Shown here: positions 1,871 through 36,488 of the stretch, piece by piece | How the letters are laid out: every line of letters starts with the position of its first letter | How positions within the stretch are numbered: the stretch's first letter is position 1 | DNA from: a virus | Reading direction: 5' to 3' (one strand) | DNA length: 64,000 nt | IMG/VR virus record: IMGVR_UViG_3300049825_001003 | Location: 1-64,000 of that record | Notes under the pieces: generated by a model | Database searches by the model: none | What the model saw: only the letters and a program-made list of their open reading frames with translations | What the model was told of the DNA's origin: nothing | Position numbers and translations under genes: made by a program

Positions 1871-2519
1871 CTGTATTCGAATAGAGGTATTAAATAGCCT
1901 ATTAGGCAGTGTACTTCCTCCTGCAGATGTTTCTATTTTAGAAATACCTGAAAATAATCTTGAGTTTAGAGGATTATTGACTAGCCTCTATCACACTCAA
2001 ACTGACAAACAGCTTCTGCTGTTGACTTTAAGAGGGAAGAAGCAAGACAAGCTTTCAGGCTTAATGAACATGGCCGATATTAAGCCATGGAAATTACTTG
2101 ACACTGTGTGCATTACTTATCAGAAACCTGGCCAGAGCAATGGGAACTGTCTAGTGCAACTCGCGGAGATCGGTTTCATTCTTTACAAAGGCCAGAGAGC
2201 TCCAAACATTGCCAACACTAAATGGTTTCGAGATGGCTATGCGAATGCTGGAACCCACTGGGACCTGTCCTCACAACCAGGGGAAACGCACGCAGGAACA
2301 ATTTTCCAGGCTTTCTCTGGAGAGTTAATCAGCTTGCTCACTTCTTTAGCAAGACCCTTGCAAAGTGACCGTGCAGTACTTTGTACCTCCACTCAGTACG
2401 ATGAAAGCATGTTGAATTTTATCCACACTCATAAAATACCTTTCCATGTTTTTGTACCAAATAATGAACAAGCTATGAAGATGGTTGAGTTTTACAATTC
2501 TCTCAAAGGACCTGTCTAA
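1851..2519 (+). CDS. Unrecognised protein upstream of the chaperonin
   Basis: A 222-residue protein whose stop codon shares a base with the chaperonin ATG (taATG), indicating translational coupling. The middle part (residues about 128-165) has a W-D-L, P-G-E-T-H-A and F...EL arrangement that loosely recalls the region before motif I of N4-cytosine/N6-adenine methyltransferases. The glycine-rich SAM motif and a DPPY/SPPY motif are both absent, so an active methyltransferase is not supported. It could be a degenerate relative or something unrelated. Confidence 0.75.
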   Translation: MFRTYDDCIRIEVLNSLLGSVLPPADVSILEIPENNLEFRGLLTSLYHTQTDKQLLLLTLRGKKQDKLSGLMNMADIKPWKLLDTVCITYQKPGQSNGNCLVQLAEIGFILYKGQRAPNIANTKWFRDGYANAGTHWDLSSQPGETHAGTIFQAFSGELISLLTSLARPLQSDRAVLCTSTQYDESMLNFIHTHKIPFHVFVPNNEQAMKMVEFYNSLKGPV

Positions 2520-4597
2520 TGAAAAGTTTAGTTGTTGGCCCAGAAGCTCGAAAGCTTGCTACCTCCAGCCTAGTAAAAATTGCAACTGCAGTTGCGACTA
2601 CATTAGGGCCCAGAGGAATGCCTTTTATTTTTGAAAAAGATTCTGGCCTGGATGGAAAGCCGATGCCAACCATCACAAAAGATGGGCTTACTGTATTGCG
2701 CTCCATGTCATTTGCAGATCCAGCCGATCATGCTGTACATGCGATGTGTGTTCAGGCTTCTAGCCGAACAGTGTTGGCAGGTGGAGATGGACCACAGCCC
2801 CTATGGGCCAGTATCCTCACACCTAATGGGTACATTGAGATGGGTGATGCGAAAGAGGGTATGGAGATTTGCGGTGTCAATGGCACTGTTCAGACCATCT
2901 TGGGAGTATTCCCAAAAGGAAAAAAGAAGCTATGGAAAGTCTCGTTCGATACAAAAGCAGTTCCTTGTTGTGGAGAACATTTATGGCAAGTAACTGACCT
3001 CGTAACTGGCAAAACAGAAGTCATGATGACTAAAGATTTGGCAAAAAATGTGAAGTTTGAAAAAGAAGGGAATTTGTTATCCAGGTATGAAACTCCACTT
3101 GCCAATGCCAATCCAAATCTTCCCTCTGGTGATAAAATTACCTCTATCGAAGAAATAGAAAAAGTGTGCGAGATGCAATGCATTAAGGTGAGCAATCCTG
3201 ACTCTCTTTATATTACTAATGGTGGAATTGTTACCCACAACACAACCTCGACAATAGTTATGGCTGCAGCAGTAGCACAAGTAATGGCTAAGTCTCTAGA
3301 AAGCTCTGACAGACCTCAAAAACTAGCAAGAGATGTACTAAAACAATCTTTAAATGCAATTGCCGAAATCTCCAAGGAAGCTATCAAGTCAAAAGAAATG
3401 GCTAGGTTAGTTGCCCTGACTTCTGCAAATGGTGATGATGAGTTGGCAAAAGTGGCTATGGAAGCTGTATCGGCAAACAATGCGTTCGGTTCTATTATTA
3501 TCGAGCGCAACCCGATGGCAACTGCCAGGTATGAAATTATCAACCAGGAAGGCCTTGTCGGAGGCAGGGGCTATGAATCTGCTAGACAGACAGCCTCTTC
3601 AGTGGACAGCACTTGCGTAGGACAAAACAGCCCATTTAAACTAAACTCACCACTTGTTGTGACTTATGATGGAACCATTACTTACGACCAGGCGCTCAGA
3701 ATACTCTCCACGCTGTCGCGAGAATATGGCGCGAATCCTATTGAAGTAATTCTAGCTGCTTATGATATTGACGTTCCTGTTTATAACATGATCACTCAAG
3801 TCAATCTCACAAATAATTCTGTCAAAGTGTGGGCTCACGAGATGAGAGACACTGGAGAAACTAACTCCCGATGGCACAAGCTTCATGATATTGCAGCTTT
3901 CACTGGAGCATCGGTTCTTAACCCTGCTCAGGTAATTGACTCTTCATGGACAAAAGAATCTTTGGGGACTTGCAAAGAAGCTGTCGTCTCGCGGGACAAG
4001 ACTACTTACTTTGGCCGCTCACCAAATCACACAGTTCCTCAGAGAGCGATACAAAACGAAAACGCTGTGAAGTATGCAGAGTCTGAATTCGACAAAGAGT
4101 TCATTAAATCGCGCAATGCCGAACTTACTTCGGGATTAGTGAAGCTCATTGTAGGAGCTGGCCACACTGCCAATGTTCAAGAGAGAGCAGACCGGGCTGA
4201 TGATGCAATTAAAGCTGCACAGGCTTGTCTGAAAACTGGTGCATTGCCAGGGTGTGGAGCTTCCTACATTCGAGCTGCATCTCTTGCTGGTGTAGGAATT
4301 GAACTCAGCACTGCCCTCCATAAAATCCACCAAACTATCATGGACAATTACGGCGCAGACCCCAAGCTCTCTTTCGAGAAGGGTGAAACCGTGTGCCTCA
4401 GTGATGAAGGACTGTCCTTCGGTGACTTCGAGAAGCTGGAGCTAGCTGACAGTTTTGAAAGCGTAGCTTCGGTGATTCGGAATGGAGTTGAGTTGGGGAT
4501 ATTAGTTAGTACTTTAGGCGGAATGAGTTTGACTACTGACTTAGAAGAAATTGAAAAACTGTCACGCGCAGGAGCGCTTTTAGGGAGCATGCGTTGA
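2519..4597 (+). CDS. GroEL-family chaperonin (60 kDa) carrying a mini-intein
   Basis: ATP-driven protein-folding chamber subunit. The 692-residue translation contains a 150-residue intein (residues 92-241); removing it leaves 542 residues, the usual GroEL length. GroEL hallmarks visible: TLGPRG near residue 29, TKDG near 53, the ATP-site GDG/TTS interrupted exactly by the intein, RADDAI with its catalytic-type Asp, and GALPGCG in place of VVPGGG. The C-terminal GGM tail of cellular GroEL is absent. No GroES gene is visible in this window, so the protein either works alone, as proposed for some large-phage chaperonins, or borrows host GroES. It lies in a tight operon (overlapping on both sides) ending at the terminator at 4939. 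Confidence 0.93.
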   Translation: MKSLVVGPEARKLATSSLVKIATAVATTLGPRGMPFIFEKDSGLDGKPMPTITKDGLTVLRSMSFADPADHAVHAMCVQASSRTVLAGGDGPQPLWASILTPNGYIEMGDAKEGMEICGVNGTVQTILGVFPKGKKKLWKVSFDTKAVPCCGEHLWQVTDLVTGKTEVMMTKDLAKNVKFEKEGNLLSRYETPLANANPNLPSGDKITSIEEIEKVCEMQCIKVSNPDSLYITNGGIVTHNTTSTIVMAAAVAQVMAKSLESSDRPQKLARDVLKQSLNAIAEISKEAIKSKEMARLVALTSANGDDELAKVAMEAVSANNAFGSIIIERNPMATARYEIINQEGLVGGRGYESARQTASSVDSTCVGQNSPFKLNSPLVVTYDGTITYDQALRILSTLSREYGANPIEVILAAYDIDVPVYNMITQVNLTNNSVKVWAHEMRDTGETNSRWHKLHDIAAFTGASVLNPAQVIDSSWTKESLGTCKEAVVSRDKTTYFGRSPNHTVPQRAIQNENAVKYAESEFDKEFIKSRNAELTSGLVKLIVGAGHTANVQERADRADDAIKAAQACLKTGALPGCGASYIRAASLAGVGIELSTALHKIHQTIMDNYGADPKLSFEKGETVCLSDEGLSFGDFEKLELADSFESVASVIRNGVELGILVSTLGGMSLTTDLEEIEKLSRAGALLGSMR
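2792..3241 (+). other. Class 3 mini-intein inside the chaperonin
   Basis: Protein-splicing element of 150 residues (residues 92-241 of the precursor). It begins PQPLWASILTPNGY, so there is no Cys/Ser/Thr at position 1, and it ends VTHN followed by Thr242 of the host protein. The three residues that define class 3 inteins are present: Trp156 in block B (GEHLWQV), Cys221 in block F (EMQCIKV) and Thr at +1. There is no room for a homing endonuclease domain, so this is a splicing-only mini-intein. It lies between GDG and TTS of the ATP-binding GDGTTT motif, so the unspliced protein should lack a working ATP site. Splicing is inferred, not observed. Confidence 0.88.
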
Positions 4598-4984: not shown

Positions 4985-6493
4985 ATGTCCTCTTTAGAAA
5001 ATAAAAACGATAAAACTCATGAGAAGCTTGCGATTATTAAAAGGTTACTTGATGAGCCTCCTTTAATAGGGCAGTTCATGAAGGCACTTACAGCAGGTGC
5101 TCTGTTTTTTGAAGAGCCTGAAGACACTATTGAGCGCAGAGCTTTAAGCAAAATGTGTGATCTTATGCTCCACGCTTATCGAACTAAAGGGAGAATGGCA
5201 GGCTTTGGCACTGCAGCACTTGCTTTGCTTGTCAGGCAGGAAGAAGAAAATGCAGCTCTAGATCCTGAAGTGTTAGCAAAAATTAAAAAATACACTCAGG
5301 CGATTTCCGGCTCAGGAATCCCTGATGTAGACACTAAGCGTAAAGAACATTCCAGATACATCGACACCTTGTCCAAGAACGACTTTATCCTCTCAAGTCT
5401 GTTGGATAGAATTAAACTTAGTTCTTTTTATGCATGGCATAACAGAGAACTGATTCCTCTGATCAAGGGTAAAGATATTAATGGGGCTATTAACTCCATG
5501 AATATTATCAATGAAGACATGGTGAAGCTGCAACTTCACACCAGCAAGCCTTTTAATATTTACCAATTAGACGATCTTATTAATAATATTGACACTGAAG
5601 TAGATAAGAGGTTTTTAGCTCTGGGAATTGACCATGTAGATGCTGAGTTATGCGGAGGCTTCTACAGGAAAACACTAAACGGGTTTATGGCGATTTCTGG
5701 TGGTGGTAAAAGCCAGATGTGTACCTACTTGCTCAGTCAATGCGTTAAACAGAAAATGAGAGCGCATGTTGTTTCGGTAGAAGAAGAAGATCGTCTGTTC
5801 TGTACTAGGCTCATTGCTGCAGTGTCAGGAGTTCCTACTCAAAAGATTCTTTTGGGCACGAAACATCTCACTCCAGAGGAACTAAAAGCCTACCAAGCAG
5901 CGCAGGTCGCCGTTCACAAATACATCGTTATTGAGTTCATCTATGACAAAACCCTAGAAGAAATTCACCGAGTAAAAGCTGAATTCTTTGAAAGTATAAA
6001 ACGAAAAATATTCCTTGCAAAAGAGAATCCAGAGCTGTACGGTATGGACGTTGAAGAGGAGATTGTTGTGGACGTTCTGGATTACTCCGGACACCTTGCT
6101 TCTTCATCTAAAGGCGACAAGATGCATGAAAAAATGCTCGAAGCTTACAGGTCGCGCAAAAACTTTGCATTGAAGCATGGGGTGATTGGTTTTGACTTTA
6201 TTCAGCCTAACCGAGACGGAACGAAAAAAGAAAATGATGATGGAATATTGAGGGCTACCGATATTGCTGGAGGTTTTGATATTGTTCGGGTATTTGATAA
6301 CCTGATGTCCATTAACCGAGGCAAGAATGATATTGAGAAGAAAGAGGCCAGAATATACTTTGACAAGTCCCGTACAGGTGATTTGAAAGGCAGATACTGG
6401 TACGTTGATACTGAGTTCGACAAAGGACGTTTCGATATGACCAATGCGAAATTAGGTAATGGAGGAGCGCTCGAAAATGTCTCAAGCAAATAA
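4985..6493 (+). CDS. DnaB-like replicative DNA helicase
   Basis: Hexameric RecA-fold helicase (502 residues), functional counterpart of T4 gp41 or DnaB. The N-terminal 200 residues are helical. The Walker A loop is SGGGKSQM (about residues 238-245), followed by a conserved EEE acid cluster (VVSVEEEDR). VDVLDYSG (about 355-362) is the Walker B strand. GFDFIQPNRDG and the Asp/Arg-rich stretch FDKSRTGDLKG correspond to the later DnaB motifs and arginine finger region. It starts the operon after the terminator with an AAGGAAG ribosome site. Together with the primase at 41118 it would form the primosome. Confidence 0.88.
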   Translation: MSSLENKNDKTHEKLAIIKRLLDEPPLIGQFMKALTAGALFFEEPEDTIERRALSKMCDLMLHAYRTKGRMAGFGTAALALLVRQEEENAALDPEVLAKIKKYTQAISGSGIPDVDTKRKEHSRYIDTLSKNDFILSSLLDRIKLSSFYAWHNRELIPLIKGKDINGAINSMNIINEDMVKLQLHTSKPFNIYQLDDLINNIDTEVDKRFLALGIDHVDAELCGGFYRKTLNGFMAISGGGKSQMCTYLLSQCVKQKMRAHVVSVEEEDRLFCTRLIAAVSGVPTQKILLGTKHLTPEELKAYQAAQVAVHKYIVIEFIYDKTLEEIHRVKAEFFESIKRKIFLAKENPELYGMDVEEEIVVDVLDYSGHLASSSKGDKMHEKMLEAYRSRKNFALKHGVIGFDFIQPNRDGTKKENDDGILRATDIAGGFDIVRVFDNLMSINRGKNDIEKKEARIYFDKSRTGDLKGRYWYVDTEFDKGRFDMTNAKLGNGGALENVSSK

Positions 6494-6644
6494 TCTAGAA
6501 GAGAAACTTCCTTTAACAAAAGAACAAAAAGAAGCACTTGAGGAGTCAATTGCAAAAAAAATAAACTCTTTATTCGAAGAACAGCAGAAAAAACATCATC
6601 AACTTATGGACCTTCTGGCCAAAACTAAGAAAGAATTCAGATGA
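6477..6644 (+). CDS. Small coiled-coil protein
   Basis: A 55-residue, Glu/Lys/Gln-rich, probably fully helical protein. The ATG at 6477 is chosen over the one at 6459 because GGAGGAG sits nine bases upstream of 6477, inside the end of the helicase gene. It overlaps the helicase by 17 bases and the next gene by ATGA. Function not recognised; its position suggests a helicase or nuclease partner. Confidence 0.75.
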   Translation: MSQANNLEEKLPLTKEQKEALEESIAKKINSLFEEQQKKHHQLMDLLAKTKKEFR

Positions 6645-8239
6645 TCAGTAAAACAATTCCCGTAGTTGCTGCTCCGAAGGCTTTAAAAACAAAAGCCTAT
6701 TTGATTGTTTCGTGTGCGCACTTAGGCATGGCTCCTAGAATTGTCTCTTTACTGAAGAACATTCGAGAGCATTATAAAGCGACTTCTTTTCACCTAGGGC
6801 CCGTGGTCACTGCAGAAGAAAAGAAGATGTATGAAAATCGAGAACGTAAAGTAAGAACATGGGAAAAGCAAACTGCTGAGACTTATAAACAGAGCCAGAA
6901 GCTCGGAGAAGACGCTCCAAATAGCTATTTCAATACAATTGACAAAATCGGTTCTGTACAGAAAGAGCTCGCTCAGCTTTTAAAAGTACAACAATCTCGA
7001 ATCGACTTCCTCAAGACCTCTCTAGATCCAAAGATTCAGTTCATTATCAATGATGAGCAGTGCCTTCCTAACGTTCTCCTAGAAGACGCAAGGCCGGAAG
7101 CTACACTCACTAAGCACCTTCTCCTCTCTTCGATTTCTGCCAATGGCGACAAGATTGCTCACAAGCCAATCTCTCCTCGCTCGTTCAACTACTTCAGGAA
7201 CCGAGGCCACAGCTTCATCATTCCTCACCCTACTCCCTGTCTTTCTTCTTTCAACAAAGAAGGAATTAATCAGGCATTTGTTATGTGCACTACAGGGTCA
7301 TTGAACGACATTGGCACTGTGAAACGTCCTAGTGAATATTACAAAATCAATAATATGCCTGGGGCTATTCTTGTCCTAGTGGATGAGACCAATGGCGAAT
7401 ACCACATCAAGCGCTTGCGTCTCGAACCTATCAATGGCAGGAATTATTCCTGCTCTGACGACGGTTTAGTTTTCTTGAGCAATGGAACAATTATTGAATC
7501 CACTAGCCCTGATAAAGCTCTTGTCTCTAGTGATGACCACGCTCCTCATCAGCATCCCGGAGTATTAGGCGCAGTTGTTGCCCTAGGCGTCCTGCACGAA
7601 CCTGAACTGATGTTCAATAATGGTGACGCTGCAGATTTCGAAAGCGTTTGTCGCCATAATAAAGGAAGGCCTCTGTATCAAGAAAACAAAAGAATTATTG
7701 ATGACGTGATGGCACTCAGAAGACTCTTGACTGTCCAAGGAAGCATCAAGTCAGTCAAGCGCAGAGTGATGGGAGATTCTAACCATGGTGGATGGGTGGA
7801 TGGGTTTGTTGCAGAAAATTCTGCACTGCAAGGTCTATTGGATTGGCCCAGTCTCCAAAGAAACTACTTCCCTGACTGGGAGTTTATTATCCGTGGAGAT
7901 CAGACTGTATTTAAATTTGGTGACTTGAGCATTCGCCATGGTGACCAGGAAAAAGGAGGAATCGCTGCAGGGTCGAGACTGTTCAGTAAGTACCTGTGCG
8001 GCCACTGGCACTCTCACAATGAGTATCTCTGGGCTGGCAGTATGGGCGCTGGATGTAAGTTAGGGCCAAAGTACTTAGAAGGAAGCTTGACTTCTTGGAC
8101 CAGTACAGTAACTTCCTTGACAAAGTACAAGGACAAGACCTCTTTCAACATTAAAACAGTGCTTCATGACTCTATTGCAAAAGTTTCTCGAGTAGCTTAC
8201 CGAGGCCAAGTGTACCAATTCCCTCAAGTTTTCGTCTAA
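6641..8239 (+). CDS. Calcineurin-like metallophosphoesterase, large phage type
   Basis: A 532-residue protein with a dispersed two-metal phosphoesterase signature in its C-terminal half: SDDHAPH (about residue 300), NNGDAADF (about 327), GDSNHGG in place of GNHD (about 378), IRHGDQEK (about 430) and CGHWHSHN (about 453). The N-terminal 170 residues include a charged helical stretch. T5 A1-type phage nucleases have a similar size and fold, so a DNase is possible, but the substrate cannot be read from sequence. It lies directly upstream of the SbcD/gp47-like subunit, giving two metallophosphoesterases in tandem. Confidence 0.82.
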   Translation: MISKTIPVVAAPKALKTKAYLIVSCAHLGMAPRIVSLLKNIREHYKATSFHLGPVVTAEEKKMYENRERKVRTWEKQTAETYKQSQKLGEDAPNSYFNTIDKIGSVQKELAQLLKVQQSRIDFLKTSLDPKIQFIINDEQCLPNVLLEDARPEATLTKHLLLSSISANGDKIAHKPISPRSFNYFRNRGHSFIIPHPTPCLSSFNKEGINQAFVMCTTGSLNDIGTVKRPSEYYKINNMPGAILVLVDETNGEYHIKRLRLEPINGRNYSCSDDGLVFLSNGTIIESTSPDKALVSSDDHAPHQHPGVLGAVVALGVLHEPELMFNNGDAADFESVCRHNKGRPLYQENKRIIDDVMALRRLLTVQGSIKSVKRRVMGDSNHGGWVDGFVAENSALQGLLDWPSLQRNYFPDWEFIIRGDQTVFKFGDLSIRHGDQEKGGIAAGSRLFSKYLCGHWHSHNEYLWAGSMGAGCKLGPKYLEGSLTSWTSTVTSLTKYKDKTSFNIKTVLHDSIAKVSRVAYRGQVYQFPQVFV

Positions 8240-14788: not shown

Positions 14789-17683
14789 ATGTCACAAAAT
14801 CTACCCAACCAGAGAACAAAATACCGGCCTATGGCGTGCGGTTTCCATGCTCACTCTGATATGTCTTTGGATGGTGGAGTAACAATTGAACAGAAAATTA
14901 ATAGAGCAATAGAACTAGGCAGGCCTGCAGATTGCCTCACAGACCATGGCAACATGAATGGGCTAGCTCTGCACCACATGTGTTGTTCAAAGAAGAAGAT
15001 TCTGGCTATTATGGGCATCGAAGCCTATGTTATCGACCCTTATGAGCCGACCAAAGTAGTAATGCGCAGAGGCAAAGAAACTACTATTCCTAATTTCGCC
15101 CACATGACAATTCACTTTAAGACTCAAGAAGCTTATCAATACTTTTGCAAGCTCACTCCCATTATGGAATCCAGGGCAGTCACCATTTTCGGTGAGCGTA
15201 AACCTCTTATGATTTGGGAAGAGCTCGAAGGCATTGCAGGGCAGATAGTAATCGGCTCCGGCTGTTTAGTTTCCTTCATACAGAAACACGTCCTGAATGG
15301 CAGAATTGACCGAGCTACTCACATGTACGAAAAGATTCGCTCACTGGCAGGCCCAGAGAACTTCTACGTGGAAGTGTTTGGTCACGAAGTGACTCACAAT
15401 TGGAAAAGCCCTGGCAAAGACACTGCTGGCGATTGGCTTCCGAAGATGTTTGTTCCGAATGAATGTGACGCTGCAGGGATGATAAAAGACATCCAGAAGG
15501 ACCCGAATGATTTTGTCATTATGATGGCAAGAAAGTATGGGGATAAAATCCTCTGCTCGGAAGATTCTCATCTAAGTACTGAAGATAACAAGCAAATTCA
15601 AGATTGTAAATTAAGTAATGGAGAATCTGCCTGGAAGTTCTATAACGCTTATTCTATGGAATCTACAGACTTTTGGGCAGAAAAAATCCAACACCGGCAT
15701 GGGCTTTCTGATAAGAATATCGAAGAAATGGTAGACAATTCTTACCACTTCATCGAACACTTCAAAGATTATAAATTTCACACAGCTAAAGACGGCTGGT
15801 TCTTGCCTAGTGTAAAGACTATCTTCGGTGATAAATATGAGGGGAAATCTAATAAAGAAATCCTCAAAGAACTTATTCGCAAATCAGACAGGATGCCCCC
15901 TAGGGACCACCCGCGCTATCAGGAATACTTAGAGCGTCTGAAGTACGAAGTTTCGGTGATTGCTGACAATGGAAAAATTGACCTACTCCCTTACTTCTTC
16001 ACAGTTGCTGACATCGCAGACTGGTGTCGAGACAATGACGTTCTGATGAACCTAAGAGGATCTGGAGGAGGATGCTTGTTGGCATACCTCCTAGGACTTT
16101 CGGTTACGGATTCAGTCAAGTGGGAATTGCCATTCGAAAGATGTTTGACCCTAGGGCGCGTCAAGTCTGGAATTTTGCCGGATCTCGATTGCGATTTCTC
16201 CAGTAAATCCAAAGTGTTAGAGTACTTAAAGGCAAAATACAACAACAACACAGCTCCAATATCCATCAACTCACTCATTAAAGTGAAGGCCGCGATTCGT
16301 GACGTGGAGCGCATGGAGAAGGGCGAAGTTATTATAGAAACTGAGATGATGTGCCGAGCTTTGCCAAATATCCCCCAGGGAGTAGAAAGCCTCAAGTGGC
16401 TCAACGGTTATATGGACAAAGAAACTGAGACTTGGGTACAAGGTTTCCTCGAAGATCCTTCTGACGCTGCAAAGAAGCTAAAAGAATATTCACAAAATGA
16501 ACCGGTAATATGGCAGACAGTAACAAAATGTTTAGGAATAATGAGACAGAAAAGCCAACACGCTTGTGCGTCGATTATAACCGACCAAGAAGTATCATCT
16601 ATTGTCCCCCTAACAATGATTGGCGATGAGCTAATTACTGGATTCTGTCCTAAATCCTGTGAATATGTCGGCCTAGTGAAGTTCGACTTCCTGGGAGTGC
16701 AGACCTTAGAGTCCATCCGGCTCTCTCTTGCAGAGATTAAAAAAGACACCGGAGAGGACTTTCCTTGGGGCGAGTTTCCTGCCGAGCCTAAAGATTATGA
16801 AAATATAATTCGCCCTATGCAGACTGCAGGATTGTTCCAGATTAAGACTCACACTATGCGCCCCTTTGTTCAGAACACTCAGCCTAGAAGTACAGGAGAC
16901 CTCTCGAACTTAGTTGCTCTTGTGCGCCCTGGTGCTATGGACGCTCCTGCTCCTGATGGCAGTGACATGTCTGCTGCTGAGTACTTTGTTGCAGTGAGAC
17001 AAGGTAGAGCAAAACCTTATTATATTCACTCGGATCTAGCTCCAATATTATCAGAGTCTTACGGCGTGGTGCTCTTTCAAGAGCAAACTTTGAGAGTATT
17101 CCGCGACTTAGCTGGATATTCCTATGAGACTGCAGAAGGGGTGAGAAGGGCTATCGGTAAGAAGGTTAAAGAAGAGATGGAATTGCACTTAGGAGTGCTA
17201 AAAACAAAGCTCTTGGAAAGAGAGTGGAGCTCTAATCAAATCAATGCCTTAGTTGAATCAATTCTTGCAAGTGCCCGCTACAGCTTCAACAAAAGCCACA
17301 GCACATCCTGCGGGATCGTAACAAATAACGGTATTTTCCTGAAATCCAGATACCCTCTTTATTTTTACCTTGGAGAGCTTCAGTCAAATATCGACGACAG
17401 GGATAAGGCGCGAGAAATTATGTCTGAGTGCCGAAGCTTTATTCTGCCTCCAGATATTCTCACTTCCCACCCTACCGAGTGGCGCATTGAGCAAGCAGAG
17501 AAACTGAGAGCTCCTCTGTCAATTGTTAAAGGGGTAGGAGGAAAAGCTGCCTCCAGCATTTCCCTGATTATGCAAAATGGGATTACAGGCCTGGCTCTCA
17601 AACCTGCTCCTGTCAAGAAAGAGAAAGCTCCTCCGAAGCCAACTAAGAAATCGCTTAAAGTCAAAGAGCTTTCTTTAGATTGA
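14789..17683 (+). CDS. DNA polymerase III alpha-like (C family), N-terminal and catalytic part
   Basis: Phage replicative polymerase of the bacterial DnaE class, 964 residues. The N-terminal PHP domain is evident (FHAHSDMSLDGG, LTDHGNMNG). Catalytic palm: GSGGGCLLAYLLGLS (about 424) and PDLDCDFSS (about 463) with the two metal-binding Asp, then KFDFLG (about 631). Later conserved stretches are VRPGAMD, LFQEQTLRVFRDLAGY and RYSFNKSHS. The chain ends just after the first helix-hairpin-helix (IVKGVGGKAASSI), where cellular DnaE would continue into the second hairpin and OB fold. Those parts are in the next gene. Proofreading may come from the DEDDh exonuclease at 40470. Confidence 0.92.
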   Translation: MSQNLPNQRTKYRPMACGFHAHSDMSLDGGVTIEQKINRAIELGRPADCLTDHGNMNGLALHHMCCSKKKILAIMGIEAYVIDPYEPTKVVMRRGKETTIPNFAHMTIHFKTQEAYQYFCKLTPIMESRAVTIFGERKPLMIWEELEGIAGQIVIGSGCLVSFIQKHVLNGRIDRATHMYEKIRSLAGPENFYVEVFGHEVTHNWKSPGKDTAGDWLPKMFVPNECDAAGMIKDIQKDPNDFVIMMARKYGDKILCSEDSHLSTEDNKQIQDCKLSNGESAWKFYNAYSMESTDFWAEKIQHRHGLSDKNIEEMVDNSYHFIEHFKDYKFHTAKDGWFLPSVKTIFGDKYEGKSNKEILKELIRKSDRMPPRDHPRYQEYLERLKYEVSVIADNGKIDLLPYFFTVADIADWCRDNDVLMNLRGSGGGCLLAYLLGLSVTDSVKWELPFERCLTLGRVKSGILPDLDCDFSSKSKVLEYLKAKYNNNTAPISINSLIKVKAAIRDVERMEKGEVIIETEMMCRALPNIPQGVESLKWLNGYMDKETETWVQGFLEDPSDAAKKLKEYSQNEPVIWQTVTKCLGIMRQKSQHACASIITDQEVSSIVPLTMIGDELITGFCPKSCEYVGLVKFDFLGVQTLESIRLSLAEIKKDTGEDFPWGEFPAEPKDYENIIRPMQTAGLFQIKTHTMRPFVQNTQPRSTGDLSNLVALVRPGAMDAPAPDGSDMSAAEYFVAVRQGRAKPYYIHSDLAPILSESYGVVLFQEQTLRVFRDLAGYSYETAEGVRRAIGKKVKEEMELHLGVLKTKLLEREWSSNQINALVESILASARYSFNKSHSTSCGIVTNNGIFLKSRYPLYFYLGELQSNIDDRDKAREIMSECRSFILPPDILTSHPTEWRIEQAEKLRAPLSIVKGVGGKAASSISLIMQNGITGLALKPAPVKKEKAPPKPTKKSLKVKELSLD

Positions 17684-21409: not shown

Positions 21410-21445
21410 GTGAGTAGTAATCTGATGAGCGGTTCTCCAAAATGA
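21410..21445 (+). CDS. Leader mini-ORF (11 residues) coupled to the fusion gene
   Basis: A strong ribosome site AAAGGAG precedes GTG, and the 11-codon frame (MSSNLMSGSPK) ends in TGA that overlaps the ATG of the next gene. The large gene has no good ribosome site of its own, so its translation probably depends on this leader. The same arrangement precedes the homing endonuclease at 34839. Confidence 0.5.
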   Translation: MSSNLMSGSPK

Positions 21446-23448
21446 CCAACAGTTCAAAGGCTAAACGCTTATCAGAAATGCTGGATAGGATGGAGGAGAA
21501 GGTTAGGAAGATTAACCCAGATATCTCTCTAGATAGAAGTACTTACATAAAACAGAAAGATCTGTGCCGCTGGATAGATTCTAAAGTAGGTGAATTTTAT
21601 CGCACTCCTAATTCAGTTATCAACGGGTCTGCATTCCATCCCGACACTTTACAAGACAGAAAAAAAGCAACTTCTCTGGCAAAGTTTGGCACTGAAAACC
21701 CCGCACAAAGCGAAGAGATTATTCGCAAGATAAAAGAAACTATCTGTAAAAAGTATGGAGAGGGTGGCCATATGAAAAATAGTGACGTCGTGAACAGATA
21801 TAAAGATACAATGAACGAACGGTATGGTGTTGATTATCCTGCACAAAACCAAACCATTCTTAAAAAACAATGGTCCACAAATCTAGAGCGATACGGCCAC
21901 AGGAGCTCCTTAGGGAATTCCGATGTTGTGCAAAAGGTGCGTGACACAAATCTCGAGCGGCACGGTTTTAGTTTTCCTGTCCAGAACATCGAGATTAAGG
22001 AAAAAATGCAGAAAACTAATCTAGAGAAATACGGGACTAGATACCCAATTCTGAATCCAGATGTCATGAAGAAGATAAAGGAGACAAATATAGAAAGGTT
22101 CGGGATGGAATACGCCGTAGCCTCCCCCCCAGTGAGAGCCAAGATAGAAAAATCTCACATTGAGAGAACAGGCTTCAAAAACTCCCTCCAGAATCCTGCT
22201 ATAAGGGAAGCTATAAAGAAAACGATGCTCAGCAGGTATGGATCCGAGCATCCGGGTGGAAGCCACGCAATCCAACAGAAGATTCATCAAAAACAAAAAA
22301 ACACCGGGCCTGAAGTCTACGTAAAGAAGTTTCTTGTTAATGCCGGAATTGATGTGCGAGACCAGGTTTTCTTGAATGGAAAAATGTGGGATTTAGGAAT
22401 TTTCAAAAACAATCAGCTCGATCTTATAATTGAAATAGACGGTGAGTTCCACCACTCGCTTATTTCCGATCCTTACTCTCTCAAGAATCAATTCGTCCCT
22501 GATGATACTCGATATTCACGACTTCCTGAGAATGTAAAATTCTTGGCAATAGACTCACAGAAAGTGAAGAAGTCGTTTCCAGAAATATCTCGTTTGTTGA
22601 ATATGGACTGCTCCGATCAGGTGAATGAGATAGTCACATCCTTAACAGGCAGCCCCTTCCCATTTCCTGCTTATGATTCAAAAAGGATGGCCAAGGACTG
22701 GACAAACCTGTGCAAAATGAAACCAATAGATAAATTCAATAACAAGCTTATGCCTGCTAATTCATTAGTCACTAATTTTCATAAGTCCATTTATTTTTCC
22801 AAGGTAGGTAAAAACCCCAGCCCCGCTGAAGCGTGGAGCGATAAAAAACTACTGAAGAAATGTATTGAGAATAGATTTCTATATGCATCCTCGCTTTCAA
22901 GCCAAACTATAGCCAGAGGTTTCGAAAGGAGCAAGATTGCTCCTAGAGTTACAGTGTTTCAGCCATATCTAGCTAGATGGCTATTGCAAACTTACACACC
23001 TGAAGCAAAAATAGTCACAGATCCGTTTTCTGGATTCTCAGGAAGAATGCTGGGAGCTGCCAGTCTGGGCATGCACTATTACGGTTCTGATATTAGATGT
23101 GAAGTAATTGAAGAAAGCCAAAAGATTTCTGATTTTCTAAAATTAGAGAATATTTTTCTCTCACAGGTGTCCAGTGAGGCGGCGGTGTTGCCTGATGCCG
23201 ACACTCTGCTGACTTGCCCACCTTATGGGAATAAGGAAGTTTGGTTTCATGGTCAAGATTGCATGTCTGCAGACGATTACATAGACCAATGTTTGTCTAG
23301 GTTCAAGGCTAAAACTTATATTTTTGTTATTGACAAGACTGTGAAGTACAACGATTTTATAAGACTGTCAATTGACAGAACAAGTCATATAAGTTCAAGT
23401 TCTAAAGAATTAGTTGTTGTGATTGAACCTTGTGAGAAAAAAAATTAA
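21442..23448 (+). CDS. Fusion: 23-residue repeats + Vsr-like nuclease + DNA methyltransferase
   Basis: A 668-residue three-module protein. Residues 77-283 are nine uninterrupted 23-residue repeats of the type TNLERYG...P.QNP.I..KIKE, presumably DNA-binding. Residues about 290-395 resemble a Vsr/PD-(D/E)XK nuclease: an early Glu (TGPEVYVKKFL) and the core MWDLGIFK...LIIEIDGEFHH. Residues about 515-660 are a SAM-dependent amino-methyltransferase: motif I DPFSGFSGRMLGAASLG and catalytic motif LTCPPYGN. Nuclease plus methylase on one chain suggests a self-protecting restriction or homing enzyme. The nuclease architecture is shared with the Hef-like protein at 34839, which lacks the methylase. It may be mobile DNA inserted upstream of the ssDNA-binding gene. 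Confidence 0.85.
   Translation: MTNSSKAKRLSEMLDRMEEKVRKINPDISLDRSTYIKQKDLCRWIDSKVGEFYRTPNSVINGSAFHPDTLQDRKKATSLAKFGTENPAQSEEIIRKIKETICKKYGEGGHMKNSDVVNRYKDTMNERYGVDYPAQNQTILKKQWSTNLERYGHRSSLGNSDVVQKVRDTNLERHGFSFPVQNIEIKEKMQKTNLEKYGTRYPILNPDVMKKIKETNIERFGMEYAVASPPVRAKIEKSHIERTGFKNSLQNPAIREAIKKTMLSRYGSEHPGGSHAIQQKIHQKQKNTGPEVYVKKFLVNAGIDVRDQVFLNGKMWDLGIFKNNQLDLIIEIDGEFHHSLISDPYSLKNQFVPDDTRYSRLPENVKFLAIDSQKVKKSFPEISRLLNMDCSDQVNEIVTSLTGSPFPFPAYDSKRMAKDWTNLCKMKPIDKFNNKLMPANSLVTNFHKSIYFSKVGKNPSPAEAWSDKKLLKKCIENRFLYASSLSSQTIARGFERSKIAPRVTVFQPYLARWLLQTYTPEAKIVTDPFSGFSGRMLGAASLGMHYYGSDIRCEVIEESQKISDFLKLENIFLSQVSSEAAVLPDADTLLTCPPYGNKEVWFHGQDCMSADDYIDQCLSRFKAKTYIFVIDKTVKYNDFIRLSIDRTSHISSSSKELVVVIEPCEKKN
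21670..22290 (+). repeat. Nine tandem 69-base coding repeats (23 residues each)
   Basis: The repeat unit is conserved at T-N-L-E-R/K-Y-G at the start and K-I-K at the end, with variable centres (positions 8-16). The register is exact over all nine copies at protein level. DNA identity between copies is low, so the array is old or under diversifying selection. Confidence 0.88.
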
Positions 23449-34788: not shown

Positions 34789-34842
34789 ATGAGTATTGAC
34801 GGGGGTACAAAGTTCATGTTCTCCAGGGTTGGTATTCAATGA
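34789..34842 (+). CDS. Leader mini-ORF (17 residues) coupled to homing endonuclease
   Basis: Very strong ribosome site AAAGGAG, then ATG and 17 codons (MSIDGGTKFMFSRVGIQ). The TGA stop overlaps the ATG of the endonuclease, which has no ribosome site of its own. Same arrangement as at 21410. Confidence 0.5.
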   Translation: MSIDGGTKFMFSRVGIQ

Positions 34843-36488
34843 AAGCACAAAAATGGACAAAAGAATCTTTCCAGGCATGGTTAGATGAAAATATGTTAAA
34901 GATTCAAGTCATTGAGTTTAATGGATATCAAGAAAAATCCCTGCTTAGACATGATCAGTATGGGAATTGGTACAAATCAGTAAAACAGGCACTGTCAGAC
35001 ATGAAAAGAAGGGGACATGTGTCTCATCCATCATCAGGAACATTACGTCTCAAACAAACCATGCTGGCCAAGTATGGGGTAGAAAGCCCATCTCAATTAC
35101 CTGACTATAAAGAAAAAACAAAAAAAACCAGCCTAAAAAGATATGGCGTTGATAATCCTGCCAAAAGTCCTGAAATTCAAAAAAAAATTAAACAAACTAA
35201 TTTAGAAAAATATGGAACTGAGTGCGTTTTTGAAAATAAAAACATAAAACAGCAAATCCGTGCAACAAACTTAGAAAAATATGGACACGAGCACGCTCTG
35301 TCATCCCCAGACATTAAACAGAAAGCTAAAGATGCCTATTTTTCGAAATACGGCGTTGAGCATGTAAAGGACATTCCGGGAAGTACAGAAAAGGCAAAAA
35401 AAACTAATTTGGAAAAATACGGCACTGAGTGCACTCTTAATAGACCTGGCATTAGAGAAAAAATCAAGCAAGATTGTTTAGAAAAACATGGGGTGGAGTA
35501 TTTTTATCAAACATCAGAATTCAAAGAAAAGTCTGCAAAAACTAACATGCAGAAATATGGAGTAGAGAACATCTTTCATTCCAAGGATTTTCAGGATGCT
35601 GCTTTTTTAATCAAGCAAAATAACGGGCAGACAAGAAAGTCCAAGGCTGAGATTGAGATACTGGAGTTCTGTAAAGCTACAATTGACCCGGATACGTCAT
35701 CCACTATCGTGAAAAACAAAGAAAGGAATTTTCAGATTGACGTTAAAATCCCAAGTAAAAACATATGCATAGAATTCAATGGATCTTATTGGCATTCTGA
35801 GGCAAATTCAAAAATCTACCCAAGGTATCATTTAGAAAAAACTTTGGCTTGTCAAAGCCAAGGACTGAGACTTGTTCACATATGGGAGCATGAATGGAAA
35901 GAAAAGAAACCTCAAATATTGTCTTATATAAAATCAATATCTGGAATTTTCGAAAGGAGAATCTTTGCCAGAAAAACTACGTGCAAGCTGGTAGATGCAA
36001 TTACTGCCAATGAATTCTTGGAAGGGAACCATCTTTTGGGCAAAGTGACCCACTTGCATGCTCATGGGCTGTTCTTCAATGAAGAGTTGGTAGGCCTGGC
36101 TACTTTAGGAAGACATCACAGGAAAACAGACATACTTGTACTTTCCAGAATGTCCTTTAAAAGTGGGGTGCAGATAATCGGAGGAATGTCAAAGCTATCT
36201 CAGGTTGTATTAATCAACTCTTCCTCTGATCAGATCATTACTTGGGCAGACAGGCGACTTGGGGCACTAGAGGGGTATCTGCAATCTGGGTGGTCAGTTG
36301 AAGAGGAGATGCCTCCTGATTATTTTTACTGGGATGACAAGAACAAGAAGGCTGTTTCTAAGCAATCAAGACGTAAATCTGCAGTTGGCACCCCAGAAGG
36401 AATGACCGAGCACGAACATGCTTTACAAGACAGACTTTACCGGATCTATGATTGTGGGAAAATTCGTCTGGTATTAAAAAAACCTTGA
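34839..36488 (+). CDS. Hef-like homing endonuclease with 23-residue repeats
   Basis: A 549-residue protein. Residues 74-257 are eight exact-length 23-residue repeats (TNLEKYG.E......I..KIKQ), homologous to those at 21442. Residues about 268-345 carry a Vsr/EDxHD-type nuclease core: AEIEILEF, then FQIDVKIPSKNICIEFNGSYWHSE. The C-terminal 190 residues (GNHLLGKVTHLHAHGLFF, TWADRRLGALEGY) match the C-terminal domain of phage Hef-type free-standing homing endonucleases. It lies directly upstream of the recombinase gene, a typical location for such elements. The DNA here is more A-rich than its neighbours, consistent with separate origin. Confidence 0.85.
   Translation: MKAQKWTKESFQAWLDENMLKIQVIEFNGYQEKSLLRHDQYGNWYKSVKQALSDMKRRGHVSHPSSGTLRLKQTMLAKYGVESPSQLPDYKEKTKKTSLKRYGVDNPAKSPEIQKKIKQTNLEKYGTECVFENKNIKQQIRATNLEKYGHEHALSSPDIKQKAKDAYFSKYGVEHVKDIPGSTEKAKKTNLEKYGTECTLNRPGIREKIKQDCLEKHGVEYFYQTSEFKEKSAKTNMQKYGVENIFHSKDFQDAAFLIKQNNGQTRKSKAEIEILEFCKATIDPDTSSTIVKNKERNFQIDVKIPSKNICIEFNGSYWHSEANSKIYPRYHLEKTLACQSQGLRLVHIWEHEWKEKKPQILSYIKSISGIFERRIFARKTTCKLVDAITANEFLEGNHLLGKVTHLHAHGLFFNEELVGLATLGRHHRKTDILVLSRMSFKSGVQIIGGMSKLSQVVLINSSSDQIITWADRRLGALEGYLQSGWSVEEEMPPDYFYWDDKNKKAVSKQSRRKSAVGTPEGMTEHEHALQDRLYRIYDCGKIRLVLKKP
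35058..35609 (+). repeat. Eight tandem 69-base coding repeats (23 residues each)
   Basis: Same unit as at 21670 (T-N-L-E-K-Y-G core). Copies 3, 4 and 6 are closest to each other. Confidence 0.87.

Follow-up and report, generated by a model that had tools for sequence, protein, structure and literature searches.

A candidate self-protecting homing endonuclease gene in a phage: repeat array, EDxHD nuclease and methyltransferase in one reading frame

Free-standing homing endonucleases must spare the genome that carries them, and usually they do so because the insertion breaks their site or because the sequence differs. A gene in a viral stretch of 64,000 nucleotides (positions 1 to 64,000 of IMG/VR record IMGVR_UViG_3300049825_001003, hereafter the window) raises the question of whether a modification domain on the same polypeptide as the nuclease might serve this end, which would be a third way of sparing the own genome. 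The joining of a repeat array, a nuclease and a methyltransferase (MTase) in one gene, proposed in the original prediction, is borne out by a single uninterrupted reading frame of 668 amino acids that contains all three modules. The features of the locus are as follows:

21410..21445, plus strand: leader ORF of 11 codons (VSSNLMSGSPK), with AAAGGAG ahead of it and a stop that overlaps the ATG of the following gene (ATGA)
21442..23448, plus strand: gene for the 668-aa protein with DUF7487 array, EDxHD nuclease and N-methyltransferase
21682..22302, plus strand: nine 23-residue repeats (aa 81-287), a predicted DNA-reading array
22303..22605, plus strand: EDxHD (Vsr-like) nuclease domain (aa 288-388; E291, D317, E331, H338, D354)
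22633..23433, plus strand: amino-methyltransferase domain (aa 398-664), including an N-terminal helper region that is also present in phage MTases standing alone
23020..23043, plus strand: MTase motif I, DPFSGFSG, SAM binding (aa 527-534)
23212..23226, plus strand: MTase motif IV, TCPPY, catalytic (aa 591-595)

The repeats had been described as nine exact units of 23 residues. Their number and their pitch are indeed exact, with units beginning at residues 81, 104, 127, 150, 173, 196, 219, 242 and 265 as read from [KRE][YHF]G marks (once RTG), but their sequences are not identical: the units are divergent, and any word shared from one unit to another has at most five residues. The protein matches Pfam family DUF7487 at 3e-37 (129 bits against a curated cut-off of 27), and in the predicted structure each unit forms one long helix followed by a short turn.

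The nuclease yields weak Pfam matches as a single sequence (MTES_1575 at 0.012, Vsr at 0.15). A profile of 16 divergent nuclease domains from the window and its relatives (denoted below by L numbers) has as its best PDB match the homing endonuclease 3r3p, a 'mobile intron protein' which we take to be I-Bth0305I, at 6.5e-6, and the same profile matches Vsr itself (1cw0) far more weakly. E291, D317, G334 and H338 are invariant across the 16 domains; D354 is common to the window protein, L091, L094, L097, L175, L020 and L010 and is not evident in the Mom-type set described below. The model shows the order alpha-beta-beta-beta...beta-alpha, and this matching secondary-structure order, together with the profile match and the invariant residues, upholds the assignment as a Vsr-like nuclease. 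EDxHD is counted among six known homing endonuclease families (PMC6083498).

The methyltransferase was likewise identified correctly: beside the two motifs there are profile matches to PF01555 (3e-4) and phrog_12517 (6e-13), and a Foldseek search with a model of high confidence (pLDDT mostly >90) retrieved Rossmann N-methyltransferases at 1e-6. The fold matches are headed by RNA N-methyltransferases. Standalone phage homologues, for example from Vibrio, Staphylococcus and Bacteroides phages, include the N-terminal helper region, and because the Staphylococcus-type homologue is a clear PF01555 DNA methylase (1e-18), DNA is, by kinship, the likely substrate. In some relatives TCSPY or TSIPY replaces the catalytic motif TCPPY.

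The window contains a further gene with such an array, preceded by a leader of the same kind:

34789..34842, plus strand: leader ORF of 17 codons, with AAAGGAG and ATGA overlap as at 21442
34839..36488, plus strand: second putative homing endonuclease gene, with eight repeats, EDxHD nuclease and Mom-like GNAT domain

For this gene, the original prediction of repeats, of the same nuclease type and of a different last domain holds, but the description of that domain as 'Hef-type' has to be replaced. Its only Pfam match is Mom (0.007), and in two of its relatives Mom is the sole Pfam match below 0.01 (2.7e-5 and 7e-5), all three values being under the curated cut-off. Among solved structures, Foldseek with the domain model gives the first two places to Mom of phage Mu (8bv8, 4e-7), and generic GNAT enzymes come after it. 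A PDB sequence search with a 3-sequence alignment of the Mom-like domains gave no match. With Pfam and the search with the predicted fold agreeing as two independent tests, the domain is best described as Mom-like, and both window genes hence follow one plan, consisting of array, EDxHD nuclease and DNA-modifying domain. At 4e-97, the 34839 protein belongs to the phage homing endonucleases phrog_3339 / phrog_559 ('Hef-type'), which resemble the 21442 protein in array and nuclease and differ from it in the last domain, which is Mom-like there and a methyltransferase here. This common phage family would accordingly be reinterpreted as nuclease-modification fusions; one IMG/VR scan found 433 stretches that encode a relative of the 34839-type last domain.

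Both genes lack a Shine-Dalgarno sequence of their own and start via the stop-start overlap with their leader, and among 53 genes tested only these two are preceded by such a short leader ORF. This suggests translational coupling, which may limit their expression. In the window we found no Group I intron or other structured RNA at the Rfam gathering threshold, and the Hint domain of inteins is absent from the Pfam matches of the window protein and its relatives. A comparison with the PADLOC defence families gave weak methyltransferase and mads_2 (mad2) matches only.

Is the fusion peculiar to this phage? The whole window protein as a single query against viral contigs revealed no relatives, but alignment-based searches did, and the proposed search for the same architecture in other viral sequences thereby yielded seven further distinct phage proteins with nuclease and MTase (L010, L020, L091, L092, L094, L097 and L175). 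They share 29-36% identity with the window protein and have unrelated flanks; between the window and the related loci only the 21442 and 34839 proteins match, plus a shadow ORF that lies within the 21442 gene on its reverse strand. The modules also occur in other combinations. L007 (LR756508, from an uncultured 484-kb phage) joins MucR-like zinc fingers, a NUMOD3 match and a Vsr domain that scores over the Pfam cut-off to the same MTase family; L104 and L258 keep array and MTase with a nuclease that is PD-(D/E)XK by motif ('PDF...EIKG'); Lak phages have the MTase with zinc-finger-like N-terminal segments and no nuclease seen. More distant members of the MTase family are joined to LAGLIDADG_2 (L014, L015, L022, L030, L039, L040), to LAGLIDADG_3 (L011, L016, L027) or to a TnsA-like nuclease (L017). 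Two of these LAGLIDADG-methyltransferase fusions (L040, 2789-5380, and L039, 990-3599) have a further C-terminal extension, which in L040 weakly matches HNH_repeat ('homing endonuclease associated repeat'). In the MTase tree the clade of the window protein comprises 14 members, none of them standalone, and over the whole tree the labels fused, alone and ParB require at least five changes. ParB-methyltransferase fusions among the scan matches form a separate clade in this tree and were set aside. A scan of bacterial and archaeal genomes (one genome per species, ~85,000) turned up a single close relative, located on a MAG contig of 65 kb, which argues that the fusion is a phage-borne element. 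In L097 a second array-plus-Vsr-like gene (6748-7857) lies a few kb from the nuclease-MTase gene, with no MTase or Mom-like domain visible.

The mobility of such genes can be followed in relatives of L094, in which the major capsid gene, T4-like by its sequence, ends in a terminator-like hairpin that the fused gene follows immediately. Three lineages offer occupied and empty versions of this site: L105/L093/L132 are occupied and L108 is empty in one; L119 is occupied and L116, L117, L120, L133, L166 and L172 are empty in another; L175 is occupied and L156 is empty in the third. The empty sites contain neither nuclease nor MTase, and the insert is therefore the whole fused gene. The capsid genes of L119 and the empty L117 are 98-100% identical, but only 85% so across the last ~117 bp; on its left side L119 has a terminator similar to the one in the first lineage, and on its right side it retains the resident one. 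Such a short replaced flank beside the insert would be the trace expected from repair of a homing cut.

L109 and L148 have a nuclease gene of the Mom type at this site. The arrays of the MTase-type L094 and the Mom-type L109 are 50% identical, in comparison to about 30% likeness among arrays of MTase-type proteins at other sites, and this resemblance despite different last domains suggests that the array sets the insertion site. L148 is an exception, as its array is less similar although it is located at the capsid site. Taken at the level of compared sequences, these loci show both mobility and module swapping in relatives of the 21442 gene. For the window itself, we sought relatives of the gene that follows the 21442 gene (23578) in order to locate an empty site, and found none. 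The capsid site of L111 is filled by a 401-aa protein (~6084-7289) that is TnpB-like by its first residues alone.

Both enzymatic domains appear to be maintained. For the pairs L091 vs L092 and L094 vs L097, dN/dS is 0.03-0.08 in the nuclease and 0.17-0.19 in the MTase; these values are rough, with synonymous distances near saturation, and show purifying selection on both domains as far as sequence comparison goes. MTase motifs are intact in Lak phages, L102, L103 and L095, all of which either lack the nuclease or have one that looks damaged. L095 (1143-2861) is near-identical to L094, with 15 nt differences in the gene, and its EIDG motif in the nuclease is altered by E247K, which may reflect an allele with an inactive nuclease or a mistake in the assembly. 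The reverse case, in which the MTase is lost and the nuclease is kept, was not seen in the window's clade, where numbers are small; its absence is as would be expected if losing the protection first were harmful. The frame of L100 (3725-4768) appears broken, with no ATG before the nuclease and a stop inside the MTase past which the tblastn match continues; either this copy is decaying or its sequence contains an error.

We consider it probable that the 21442 gene is a free-standing, site-specific homing endonuclease gene with a built-in, self-protecting DNA-modifying domain. The 23-residue array would act as an address by binding a long target located within a conserved gene or close to one; the EDxHD nuclease would cut the genome of a recipient phage at this address where the modification is absent; recombination or repair would copy the fused gene into the break; and the C-terminal MTase, or the Mom-like domain in the 34839 protein, would mark the same or a nearby site, so that the carrier remains uncut. 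We infer cleavage, methylation, a target common to both activities, and self-protection for the 21442 protein. The original prediction had offered, as one of two readings, that a homing endonuclease marks the allele of the recipient. This idea finds support in the fixed-site mobility of relatives, in the EDxHD nuclease and in its repeated pairing with DNA-modifying domains, with self-protection as a predicted element. A counterpoint is that protection is unneeded if the insertion destroys the target, as in ordinary homing.

The other reading, a restriction-modification weapon on a single polypeptide, would cut many short sites in a host or competitor while the own genome is methylated, and site-specific spread would be incidental. 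It draws on the combination of cutting with modification in a single chain, known from Type IIC/IIG enzymes and TstI (PMC4027205), on the interpretation of jumbo-phage Mom-REase fusions in this sense by Iyer 2021 (PMC7824862), and on the conservation of both nuclease and MTase. The closest relative of the nuclease is, however, a homing endonuclease and not a restriction enzyme, the long array suggests a long and rare target, and presence or absence at a fixed site with array similarity tracking that site are features of homing; we regard this explanation as unlikely. Slightly less likely is that a homing endonuclease carries an unrelated MTase as useful cargo, which would guard the phage against host restriction of any kind while the nuclease acts on a different target. 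In favour of this reading, most members of the MTase family stand alone in phages and have the same helper region, but MTase and Mom-like domains, whose chemistries are unrelated, are found at one and the same place after this array and nuclease, and EDxHD, PD-(D/E)XK and LAGLIDADG nucleases have all been joined to this MTase family; the repeated pairing of nuclease and modification suggests a functional link. Finally, a homing endonuclease gene might have inserted at the 5' end of an MTase gene already in place, and the fusion would be accidental. Standalone MTases of the family do exist, and a complete MTase follows the nuclease in the fusions, yet the empty capsid sites also lack the MTase and the insert is the whole fused gene, which already contradicts such an origin for the capsid-site lineages; with no Hint domain among the Pfam matches and no standalone MTase in the window's clade, we regard it as highly improbable.

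A homing gene that protects itself could settle beside an essential gene and leave its own target intact, and it could resist loss, like a toxin-antitoxin or restriction-modification system. It would be a direct intermediate linking homing endonucleases and restriction-modification, and the pairs of occupied and empty capsid sites make the idea directly testable. More tentatively, there may be a general class of self-immune phage homing elements in which the address (repeat or zinc-finger array), the nuclease (EDxHD, PD-(D/E)XK or LAGLIDADG) and the modifier that marks the target (methyltransferase or Mom-like) are all swappable.

How does the 21442 protein compare to systems already known? 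It resembles EDxHD homing endonucleases of the I-Bth0305I type (3r3p) in its nuclease profile, in the E-D-x-H-D residues and in the link to mobile phage genes, and the fixed-site mobility of such enzymes is found in its relatives (three occupied/empty pairs). In contrast to the crystal chain of 3r3p, which consists of 105 aa of nuclease only, it has a DUF7487 array before the nuclease and a methyltransferase after it, and it does not lie in an intron. With TstI, Type IIG/IIC enzymes and fused Eco29kI it shares cutting and methylation in one polypeptide. The order in Type IIG/IIC is nuclease, methyltransferase and recognition domain, whereas here it is array, nuclease and methyltransferase; the nuclease is of the homing kind, the gene of the relatives spreads at a fixed phage site, and the residence in bacterial genomes that is typical of Type IIG/IIC was not found (one close relative in ~85,000 species genomes).

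The original prediction knew of no standard family with this order of domains, which holds for the methyltransferase version but not for the plan as a whole: Iyer et al. 2021 had described REase-Mom fusions in jumbo phages, predicted to act in restriction-modification and without mention of homing (PMC7824862). These likewise combine nuclease and DNA modification in one chain, and the 34839 protein fits their description; the 21442 protein has a methyltransferase instead of the Mom-family domain. In the open-access literature we found no description of the nuclease-methyltransferase version, nor of either version as a homing element. Homing elements and inteins interrupt resident methylases of phages, including actinophages (Gosselin 2023, PMC9957025; PMC11855218), and there too homing endonuclease and methylase share one ORF. 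While those elements interrupt a resident methylase, the complete fused gene is mobile in 21442-type elements at the capsid site.

Two other genes of the window may be mentioned. The one at 2519-4597 encodes a protein of 692 aa, part of which is GroEL/cpn60-like (phrog_5725, 8e-57) and whose N-terminal stretch weakly matches helicase-loader and terminase families, and 14789-17683 encodes the phage's own bacterial-type DNA polymerase III alpha with a PHP domain.
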